Shown here: positions 162 through 6,505 of the stretch, piece after piece
Layout of the letters: each line of letters starts with the position of its first letter
How positions within the stretch are numbered: position 1 is the first letter of the stretch
Assembly (NCBI RefSeq): GCF_002009425.1
Contig: NZ_CP019936.1
Location: forward strand, 1 to 64,000
Reading direction: 5' to 3'
DNA from: Thiosocius teredinicola
Lineage (GTDB): Bacteria > Pseudomonadota > Gammaproteobacteria > Chromatiales > Chromatiaceae
Length of the DNA stretch: 64,000 nucleotides
Notes under the pieces: model-generated
Told to the model about the DNA's origin: nothing
What the model saw: only the letters and a program-made list of their open reading frames with translations
Databases searched by the model: none
Made by a program: the position numbers and the translations under genes

Positions 162-1532
162 ATGAACATCAATCTCTGGCAGCATTGTCTCGACAGACTG
201 GGCAATGAGATCCCCAATCAGCAGTTCAACACCTGGATTCGTCCGTTGCACTGTATTCAGGAATCAGACCGCCTGCGCCTGATGGCGCCCAACGCTTTTG
301 TGCTCGATTGGGTCAAAAAGCATTACCTCGACAGGTTGCGAGGCTATGTCGACGATTTGGGGCAGGGCAATGCCATGGCGATCAGTCTGGAGATCGGCAG
401 CGCACCGCGCTCGCCCACCGCCGGCGTTCGCCCAACGACGCCGCCTGAGCCACACCTTCGCGAACCGGGTGCGCGACACAACGACGTACCGAATGTAAAA
501 CCGGCGTTCAAGGCCAATACCAACGCCGATTTCACGTTCGAGAGTTTTGTCGAAGGTAAATCGAACCAGTTGGCCCGTGCCGCCGGTATGCAGATCGGCG
601 ACAACCCCGGCCGTGTGTACAACCCCTTGTTCATTTATGGCGGTGTAGGTTTAGGCAAAACCCATCTCATGCACGCCGTCGGCAACCGCATTTTGCAGAA
701 CAATCCGCAGGCGCAGGTGCTCTACATGCACTCGGAAGGTTTTGTGGCCGAGATGGTCAAGGCCCTGCAACACGGCACAATTGATGATTTCAAGCGCAAG
801 ATGCGCTCGGTTAATGCCTTACTGATCGATGATGTTCAATTCTTCGCCGGCAAGGAACGATCGCAAGAAGAGTTTTTCCACACCTTCAATGCGCTGTTCG
901 AGTCGCAGCAACAGATCATCCTGACGAGTGACCGCTTTCCGAAAGAAGTCGACGGTTTGGAAGACCGCCTGAAGTCGCGGTTCGGTTGGGGATTGACTGT
1001 TGCCGTGGAACCGCCGGATCTGGAGACGCGGGTCGCCATTCTCAAGAGCAAAGGCCAACAACTGTTCGGTGTTGAACTACCCAACGAGGTCGCGTTCTTT
1101 ATCGGCAAGCGGGTGCGGTCGAACATCCGCGAACTGGAAGGAGCGTTGCGCCGTATCGTGGCCAACTCGCAGTTCACCGGTCGCGCGATCACGATGGATT
1201 TTGCCAAGGATGCGTTGCGCGACATGATCGCAGCGCAAGACAAACTCGTGACGATCGACAACATTCAACGTACCGTCGCTGAATATTTCAAGATCAGAAC
1301 GTCGGACCTGCTGTCTGCAAAACGCAGCCGTACGATTGCACGCCCTCGCCAGGTAGCGATGACCCTCGCCAAAGAACTTACCAATCACAGCCTGCCTGAG
1401 ATCGGCGAAGCATTTGGCGGGCGCGACCACACAACGGTACTTTATGCCACGCGCAAAATTGCTGAGTTACGCGAGACCGACCATCGGGTTGCCGAAGACT
1501 ATAACAACCTGTTAAGAACCTTGAGTAATTGA
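162..1532 (+). CDS. dnaA: Chromosomal replication initiator DnaA
   Basis: Binds DnaA boxes at the origin and melts it in an ATP-dependent way to load the replicative helicase. At 456 aa it has all four domains: an N-terminal domain I (about residues 1-80), a short variable linker, an AAA+ core with Walker A GGVGLGKT (about 160-167) and Walker [10 protein letters not shown], a sensor region with [19 protein letters not shown], and the C-terminal DNA-binding helix-turn-helix with the signature [11 protein letters not shown]. The ATG at 162 gives the canonical N-terminus [13 protein letters not shown]. It is followed by an origin-like intergenic region and dnaN, the standard order in gammaproteobacteria. 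Confidence 0.98.
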
Positions 1533-1765
1533 TGTGTGCGACAGTTGAGGCAAAATCAAAGAACCGATTGAGCCAGAGTTATCCACAATAGGCACACAGG
1601 GTTGAATAGCATCCATCACGTTGTTTTGGGTCACGAAATTATCACTTAACCTATTGATTTAATTAAGTAAAAATAGGTTTTCCACAGTTGGCAGCTGTGC
1701 TTATAACAATAGTAATTTCTTAATAAAATCTTATTTTAACTATCAACCAATGGGGAATCAGTCGG
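1533..1765. other. oriC: candidate oriC between dnaA and dnaN
   Basis: This 233-bp gap holds a perfect DnaA box TTATCCACA (1579-1587), a related TTTTCCACA (1678-1686), and between and after them a strongly A+T-rich stretch (about 1636-1745, including TTAATTAAG) that could be the unwinding element. In many gammaproteobacteria, pseudomonads for example, oriC sits exactly here. The boxes and AT-richness are seen directly; origin function is inferred. The gap must also carry the dnaN promoter. Confidence 0.75.
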
Positions 1766-2952: not shown

Positions 2953-4023
2953 ATGTGGATCAATTCACTGAGTATTTCTGACTTGAGGGTTATTCGGTCG
3001 CTCGAGCTCCGACCACGCGAAGGGATTAACTTTGTGTGTGGGCCGAATGGTGCCGGCAAGACGACGATCCTCGAAGCGATTTATCTGGCAGGTCGTGGAC
3101 AGAGTTTTCGCCACCAGGACGCCGGGCCGATGATTAGAAATGGGTCCGACGATGCGACGATTGTCGTGAAGATGGTGGGAGCAGGCGGTCGGCAGGCCAT
3201 TCTTGGCGTTAGGCGCAGCGCGAAAAATGTTGAATGCCGTTTGAATGGCGAGAACGTTTCGAAGCGATCAGGGCTGGCGATGGCCTTGCCGGTGCAGTGG
3301 ATTGGCTCGCAGCCTCAGCTGCTGTTGAGTATGGGACCAGAGGTTCGGCGTCGGTTTTTGGATTTGGGAGTGTTCCACGTGGAACATTCTGTGTATTCCG
3401 AAGAGGCTAAGGGATACCAACGCGCTCTACGGCAACGCAACGCCGCAATCAGAATGAATCAACCCGAATTGGTGCGGATGTGGGATGAGCCATTGGCAAC
3501 AGCAGGCACCGCCATCGACCGTCTTCGACAATCCTTTTTGGAGTTATGGGCGCCTAGGGTCCGCGACATCCTAAGCGAATGGTTGGGCGGCCTTGATGTT
3601 TCGTTTGTCTACCGTCGTGGGTGGAATAGACAACAAGATTTGCTGGAAATCTACCGCACCAAACGCGACACCGATTTCAATCTGGGCTACACCTACGCGG
3701 GCCCGCACCGCGCAGATATCGAGATAAAGGCCGTACAGGGTTTGGCTGAAAAGACGCTATCGCGTGGCCAACAGAAACTGCTTGTTCTAGCAATGAACAT
3801 GGCGATGCTGGACGTAGCGAAGTCGCGATCAAGCGAGGTGCCTGTTCTGTTGCTTGATGACCTCGCTGCGGAGCTGGACAAGGGTAATCAAGAACGTGTT
3901 CTTCTCGCAGTGAGCGATCGCTGCGAACAGTCATTTATTACTAACATCAGCTCGGTCTTGGATCCTGCGCTATCCCCAAGTTGTACGATGTTCCACGTGG
4001 AACATGGCCACCTGACGACATGA
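2953..4023 (+). CDS. recF: DNA replication and repair protein RecF
   Basis: SMC-like ATPase that, with RecO and RecR, helps load RecA on gapped DNA. The 356-aa protein has Walker A GPNGAGKT at residues 30-37, the ABC signature LSRGQQKLLVLAMNMA, and Walker B VPVLLLDDLAAELD. Two stretches of the protein, GVFHVEHS and MFHVEHG, are encoded by perfect ParB-binding sites (3371-3386 and 3989-4004), the second only a few codons before the stop. The C-terminal end may therefore be shaped by the DNA site rather than by protein function. Confidence 0.96.
   Translation: MWINSLSISDLRVIRSLELRPREGINFVCGPNGAGKTTILEAIYLAGRGQSFRHQDAGPMIRNGSDDATIVVKMVGAGGRQAILGVRRSAKNVECRLNGENVSKRSGLAMALPVQWIGSQPQLLLSMGPEVRRRFLDLGVFHVEHSVYSEEAKGYQRALRQRNAAIRMNQPELVRMWDEPLATAGTAIDRLRQSFLELWAPRVRDILSEWLGGLDVSFVYRRGWNRQQDLLEIYRTKRDTDFNLGYTYAGPHRADIEIKAVQGLAEKTLSRGQQKLLVLAMNMAMLDVAKSRSSEVPVLLLDDLAAELDKGNQERVLLAVSDRCEQSFITNISSVLDPALSPSCTMFHVEHGHLTT
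3371..3386. promoter_or_regulatory. parS: parS site 1 (ParB/Spo0J centromere), inside recF
   Basis: Perfect 16-bp palindrome TGTTCCACGTGGAACA. This is the known parS sequence of gammaproteobacteria such as Pseudomonas, where ParB binds it near oriC to segregate the chromosome. It is read in frame in recF as phenylalanine-histidine-valine-glutamate-histidine. Confidence 0.9.
3989..4004. promoter_or_regulatory. parS: parS site 2 (ParB/Spo0J centromere), at the recF 3' end
   Basis: Second perfect copy of TGTTCCACGTGGAACA, 618 bp from the first and again read as FHVEH in recF. Two identical 16-bp palindromes this close together near the origin strongly support a chromosomal centromere. The parAB genes themselves are not in the window. 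Confidence 0.9.

Positions 4024-4069: not shown

Positions 4070-6505
<2,436 letters not shown>

Follow-up and report, generated by a model that had tools for sequence, protein, structure and literature searches.

The dnaN-recF-gyrB Interval and Its Two Palindromes

The window analysed here, the whole 64,000-nucleotide stretch at the start of contig NZ_CP019936.1 of Thiosocius teredinicola, carries the gene row dnaA-dnaN-recF-gyrB, with the gene families confirmed by profile scores. The first of these genes, dnaA (162-1532, plus strand), marks the origin region, and is followed on the same strand by dnaN (1766-2866), recF (2953-4023) and gyrB (4082-6505). RecF, a protein of 356 amino acids, scores 318.3 bits against TIGR00611 (curated cut-off 172), and its upstream and downstream neighbours, dnaN and gyrB, form the left and right borders of the parS interval in most relatives. 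Within recF, the 16-mer TGTTCCACGTGGAACA is present in exact form on the plus strand at 3371-3386 (site 1) and 3989-4004 (site 2). Both copies are read in frame as FHVEH: site 1 spans RecF residues V140-H145 (VFHVEH), with the codons gTG TTC CAC GTG GAA CAt, and site 2 spans M346-H351 (MFHVEH), with the codons aTG TTC CAC GTG GAA CAt.

When up to three mismatches to the 16-mer were allowed, these two places were the only ones found in the window, against 0.20 expected for such a loose search, and a chance origin of the pair was rejected on this basis. In the whole genome (one contig of 4,790,451 bases), the two copies in recF are the only exact ones, and three additional places have two mismatches. 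The original prediction, that the 16-mer lies twice within recF and is in frame both times, therefore stands without amendment. The relaxed core GTTYCACGTGRAAC has three copies genome-wide, the third of which, TGTTCCACGTGAAACC (G000:C1:2175201-2175216; L005 1501-1516), lies upstream of a minus-strand reading frame of 286 amino acids.

Sites 1 and 2 start 1.8 and 2.5 kb past the end of dnaA, and the prediction that the centromere lies close to the origin agrees with these distances, a candidate position for the origin itself being suggested by DnaA-box-like matches. One of these matches, TTATCCACA (1579-1587, plus strand), is a possible origin element in the gap between dnaA and dnaN, and a second, TTTTCCACA (1678-1686), lies in the same gap. 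Because five such matches were observed in the window and 2.15 were expected, they are weak on their own. The sequence features found here are those expected of a chromosomal parS. The two exact copies are 16-bp palindromes fitting TGTTYCACGTGRAACA, they lie near the replication origin as judged by distance from dnaA, a chromosomal ParB is encoded together with ParA in the same genome, and the sites are concentrated at the origin rather than scattered, the exception being the one relaxed core at 2,175,201.

A further feature of the window is a strong stem with a T run between dnaN and recF (2895-2935; -22.6 kcal/mol, z -5.2). It resembles a terminator, in which case recF-gyrB would be set apart from dnaA-dnaN; a consensus scan did not list it. 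An Rfam scan of the window gave no matches at gathering thresholds.

The genes for ParB (296 amino acids) and ParA adjoin rsmG at 4.771-4.773 Mb, which places them, if the map is circular as assumed, about 18-19 kb on the other side of dnaA. ParB scores 202.7 bits against the ParB/Spo0J model TIGR00180, above its curated cut-off of 58.45, and 229 bits against the Noc model TIGR04285, below its curated cut-off of 315. Its residues matching Caulobacter R173 and G201 are of ParB type, and on both counts the possibility that the palindromes are Noc-type sites was rejected.

One alternative accepts that the recF sites bind ParB and holds that they are spare, the working centromere lying elsewhere, for example near 2,175,201 or at degenerate sites near parAB. 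The existence of a third relaxed core is in keeping with such an arrangement, as is the report, in the portions of the P. aeruginosa papers available, that only one of four sites is needed in that species (PMC4368675; PMC5098823). However, the full 16-mer is matched by the recF sites only, both of them beside dnaA, whereas the third core lies far from the origin, about 45% of the way round the chromosome, and a parS-like sequence of P. aeruginosa with two mismatches is described in the available text as inefficiently bound in vivo (PMC5098823). A working centromere away from recF is accordingly judged very unlikely.

Conservation Across the Gammaproteobacteria

In the family to which this genome belongs, 40 of 58 genomes (this one included) have two or more places that differ from the 16-mer by one base at most, 7 have one such place and 11 have none, incomplete genomes being part of the count; all eight congeners have two. 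A sample of the class comprised 369 genomes, with RecF matched in 306 and ParB in 345. RecF rows were read from 277 of them, the other 29 RecF-matched genomes being weak, fragmentary or unfetched, and 63 of the 92 genomes that gave no row had no RecF match. The 305 loci obtained were reduced to 299 RecF sequences by removal of those identical in the last 150 residues.

Of these 299 sequences, 210 have a parS core at both positions and 32 at neither; 34 have one at the first site alone and 23 at the second alone. Exactly two cores genome-wide, both in recF, were found in 162 of the 277 genomes, and 435 of the 540 cores that these genomes contain sit in recF. Reading frame and spacing are also conserved: 479 of 483 cores in recF reading frames share one frame and, among the 212 recF genes with two cores, the spacing is divisible by three in 210 and amounts to 606-636 bases in 203. 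Of the 23 loci that lack one recF core, 11 have a further core within 3-4 kb, versus 22 of 135 loci with both (p 0.0016), and no nearby core was found in the 19 loci without recF cores; this flank test covered the 177 loci of at least 6.9 kb.

Of 80 named contigs that formed a second, separate set, 49 have both sites, 4 have site 1 alone, 8 have site 2 alone and 19 have neither. Both sites are present in Pseudomonas, Halopseudomonas, Xanthomonas, Alteromonas, Pseudoalteromonas, Chromohalobacter and Microbulbifer, among others. No core was found in recF of Vibrio (4/4) or Shewanella (3/3) in this set. All four Vibrio-type sequences keep FHVE[HR] at site 2, where CAT instead of CAC breaks the core, and Photobacterium has the same CAT in site 2 and retains site 1. 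The nine Enterobacterales of the named set lack both recF cores, Yersinia and Xenorhabdus retaining the look-alike MFRVEH; the Enterobacteriaceae are described in the part of the literature available as being without the system, a statement about the group rather than about these nine sequences (PMC4368675). In the class sample, one family (f158) has ParB and recF and no core. PDB alignments of RecF lack FHVEH at site 1 and stop short of site 2, and since the loci obtained in a phylum-level search for outgroup RecF came only from the same class, it is on these alignments that polarity outside the class depends.

Codon Use and the Residues of RecF

Codon use was assessed in rows picked by amino acids alone, namely FHV followed by E or K. 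At site 1, 244 of 249 such rows read CAC-GTG-[GA]AA, and at site 2, 235 of 245 do, against 22.4 per site expected from the codon use of the same genes, and the codon base immediately outside the 16-mer varies freely. At H252, a conserved residue elsewhere in RecF that served as a control, CAC occurs 115 times and CAT 139 times, and other conserved residues are likewise mixed. The check in relatives that had been set beforehand thus found the 16-mers to be conserved at the level of codons, not of amino acids only.

In the F codon, furthermore, the silent third position is coupled to the choice of E or K three codons on (Fisher p 2e-13 and 5e-7 at the two sites, in rows that share ancestry), as palindrome symmetry demands: at site 1, TTT is used in 34 of 35 K rows and 73 of 214 E rows, and at site 2 in 39 of 50 K rows and 75 of 195 E rows. 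This coupling is partly a matter of base composition, because the genes of K rows also use more TTT for F in general (0.71-0.72, against 0.59-0.60 in E rows). The p-values are too small owing to relatedness of the rows, yet the effects are large.

Rows without a core indicate which residues the protein itself favours. F141 is nearly universal across RecF rows, and core-less rows mostly keep F141 and H or Y at 142, and often F347 (62/80) and V349 (45/80), so that RecF was half compatible with the sites beforehand at both places. The same rows vary widely at residues 143-145, 348, 350 and 351. From this pattern, the residues mainly dictated by the DNA would be V143, E/K144 and position 145 at the first site, and H348, E/K350 and position 351 at the second. 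The prediction that site 2 shapes the RecF C-terminus can accordingly be retained for H348, E/K350 and residue 351 and not for F347 and V349, which are common without a core; the broader view of FHVEH as imposed by DNA holds overall, except that its F and V are partly required by the protein. In a predicted structure of RecF (mean pLDDT 93.8), site 1 falls at a break where one helix (129-143) ends and the next (145-167) starts, and site 2 lies in a strand (344-350) near the C-terminus.

Loss and Relocation of recF

Seventy-three sampled genomes were classed as recF-less, having no RecF match or a weak one (E above 1e-6). At least one core is present in 33 of them, and no core was found anywhere in the other 40. 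The order dnaN, core(s), gyrB is seen in 25 of the 33 core-bearing genomes, with two or more cores in 16 of these. In 24 of the 25, the stop codon of dnaN is separated from the first aligned base of gyrB by 64-399 bases, and in one (G250) by 870, gaps into which recF does not fit. In two recF-less genomes, G174 and G070, the cores lie beside gyrB with no dnaN detected, and in six of the 33 (G164, G280, G281, G378, G385 and G392) they lie elsewhere or without informative neighbours, two of the seven cores of G385 having been looked at. Parsimony on a GyrB tree (354 sequences, 27 recF-less tips, G114 counted twice, no support values) gives about 11 changes for the loss of recF.

Some recF-less genomes carry clusters of cores. 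In G174, twelve parS cores with a 43-base period stand upstream of gyrB (L365 1287-1773). Two members of one family, G280 (L257) and G164 (L359), have five and three clustered cores, respectively, in loci containing neither dnaN nor gyrB, which constitutes an alternative layout.

The position of recF was also informative where the gene is present. Among 316 loci in which recF has both neighbours, 231 contain two cores, 48 one and 37 none. When recF lies away from dnaN and gyrB (8 loci), seven have none and one has a single core (Fisher p 4e-6), a count that covers recF itself. Loci with one neighbour gave mixed figures: none, one and two cores in 4, 14 and 6 of the 24 loci with dnaN and without gyrB, and in 2, 4 and 6 of the 12 with gyrB and without dnaN. 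Nineteen recF loci that run into a contig end were given no neighbour verdict.

These results bear on the possibility that RecF itself needs FHVEH and that a conserved peptide together with codon bias produced the 16-mer incidentally. The near-universal F141, the frequent F347 and V349 in rows without a core, and the four Vibrio-type sequences that hold FHVE[HR] at site 2 despite a core broken by CAT are what a need for the peptide would produce. Such a need does not, however, account for core codons at more than ten times the roughly 22 expected per site, for the mixed codons of H252, for the divergence of core-less rows at residues 143-145, 348, 350 and 351, or for cores in the dnaN-gyrB gap after recF has been lost. 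A constraint by the peptide only was therefore rejected, and it is considered highly improbable that the 16-mers arose as its by-product. The original claim that a DNA site constrains this coding sequence is upheld by the conservation of codons, by the cores that stay without recF (25/33) and by their absence from relocated recF (7/8).

ParB Presence and Altered Sites

Association with ParB was examined in genomes with a completeness of 90% or more and no more than 5% contamination. No core was found in 12 of the 17 such genomes without a ParB match, versus 36 of the 297 with one (p 1.5e-7). The five ParB-negative genomes that keep cores (G187, G188, G273, G282 and G372) are draft assemblies, each in at least 120 contigs, in which ParB may therefore have been missed. 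When all 24 genomes without a ParB match are considered, several of them far from complete, 11 have cores. Decay of the sites can be followed within one genus (g77), in which G084 has ParB and two intact cores, while G229 and G336, without a ParB match, have FHAEP at site 1 and both cores broken. A further genome with no ParB match, G308, reads LFHHHT and LFEVNV at the sites.

In nine genomes, each of the two recF sites departs from the core by one or two bases, and seven of these genomes have ParB. The altered core is identical at both sites in five of the seven ParB-bearing genomes (G081, G154, G236, G222 and G408); in G060 the two sites are reverse complements of each other, and in G088 they share one half. 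G229 and G336, which have no ParB match, show unlike changes at the two sites. Genome-wide, the altered form occurs twice in G081, G236, G222, G060 and G088; G154 has two more matches, which are AT-rich, and in G408 a third match is a standard core inside recF, besides the altered pair. V is replaced by M at both RecF places in G081, G154 and G408. Altered sites are not always paired, because ten or so genomes mix one standard and one near-core site. In G313 (L242 2145-2158), the usual recF sites are gone and an altered core, GTTCCACATGGAAC, lies elsewhere within recF; G408, a member of the same family, carries this altered core at the usual recF places.

The ParB residues that contact parS are named in the available part of PMC7383237. 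The equivalents of Caulobacter G170, K171, S172 and R204 were set by eye from an alignment, and residues were counted by eye in 30 rows, 11 rows that fitted neither group being left out of the comparison of altered pairs with standard cores. Contact residues are unusual in 5 of 7 genomes with altered pairs, versus 1 of 12 standard-core rows (Fisher p 0.0095). K replaces R204 in all four genomes with CACGTA-type sites (ParB loci L337, L339, L346 and L354), versus 3 of 26 other rows (p 0.0013), namely those of G073 and G081 and of the second ParB in G179. Altered sites without a change of contact residues occur in G060, G063 and G408. These comparisons, which are exploratory and use groups formed after the data had been seen, hint that changes in ParB contact residues may track altered sites.

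Association with ParB also bears on whether the palindrome acts in transcription or RNA, as a hairpin, in attenuation or as the target of a CACGTG-binding regulator of recF-gyrB, rather than in segregation: although the sites lie within an operon-like gene row and, in P. aeruginosa, this region is expressed less when ParB is in excess (PMC5521831), this idea is scarcely credible, given that cores go with ParB (12/17 versus 36/297 without cores, decay in G229 and G336, and absence from all nine Enterobacterales), that an 8+8 stem with no loop would make a poor hairpin, and that, in the portion of the P. aeruginosa study available, the expression effect itself acts via ParB and was not observed for the genes next to parS1 and parS2 when ParB was at its native level (PMC5521831).

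A Probable Centromere Written Into a Protein Gene

The two 16-mers in recF are very probably the parS sites, and thus the centromere, of this chromosome, with a DNA site held at a fixed place shaping RecF. This reading is drawn from comparison of sequences, namely from the sites themselves, the conservation of their codons, the fact that they persist where recF is lost and are missing from recF placed elsewhere, the association with ParB and the matching change of both sites in some lineages; binding by ParB and a function in segregation would be expected in this organism by extension. The chromosomal ParB would load on both sites as a CTP clamp and slide over dnaN-recF-gyrB, after which ParA would separate the newly replicated origins. 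The target of selection would be DNA held in one position, the interval from dnaN to gyrB next to dnaA, and since recF normally fills this interval, the sites would have come to be written into recF. They would have been accommodated in the sole reading frame that gives F-H-V-[EK]-x and at two places that RecF tolerates, a helix break and a strand near the C-terminus. Because parS sits in its coding sequence, RecF would in part be shaped by the DNA site; the centromere appears to belong to the place, and RecF to have adapted to it.

For the class as a whole, it is likely that the centromere of the Gammaproteobacteria is an old pair of ParB sites tied to dnaN-gyrB, that its imprint on RecF dates perhaps from early in the class, and that drift of the site preferred by ParB changes two distant stretches of RecF together, as with V to M in G081, G154 and G408. 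If so, a DNA-binding protein would have led the evolution of RecF without any need for the two to come into contact. The case is one, on a large scale, of a DNA site with a structural job that is kept in a protein gene and decides some of its amino acids, and the natural experiments it offers (gene lost, gene elsewhere, ParB lost, site changed) separate constraint on DNA from constraint on protein. Conserved RecF residues such as FHVEH should not be taken for catalytic or binding motifs. In practical terms, the recF pair would provide a simple marker of the centromere for many Gammaproteobacteria, and one that also follows change in ParB specificity.

Comparison With Known Systems

The system resembles Noc and its binding sites (NBS) in using a DNA-binding protein of the ParB-like family, as reflected in the 229 bits of the host ParB on the Noc model, and differs from it in that this ParB falls under the 315-bit cut-off and has equivalents of R173 and G201 of ParB type. 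With the ParABS systems of B. subtilis and Caulobacter it shares a ParB of family TIGR00180, parA-parB beside rsmG, sites near the origin and a CACGTG palindrome core; unlike in those systems, the sites here are written in recF. In B. subtilis, parS sites are spread over a wider region, and one lies inside spo0J. A 2007 survey of parS by Livny and others may already list sites in recF.

The closest parallel is P. aeruginosa, where parS1 and parS2 lie within recF (PMC5521831), the consensus is TGTTCCACGTGGAACM (PMC5098823), and intragenic sites were changed in 2015 without altering the proteins, one of the four sites being enough (PMC4368675). The sites described here are of the same kind, in the same gene, intragenic and near oriC, and because parS1 and parS2 had already been reported there, at least in the text available (PMC5521831), placement in recF is not new. 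A search of the literature, with most subscription journals outside its reach, returned nothing on class-wide retention in recF or on the shaping of RecF. P. aeruginosa has two further strong sites outside recF (parS3 and parS4), whereas in the present genome the recF pair are the only exact copies. The P. aeruginosa work, as far as its available text extends, covers one species, and class-wide retention, persistence without recF and the effect on RecF are not seen there. The placement being known, the interest lies in the breadth of the phenomenon together with the four natural experiments.
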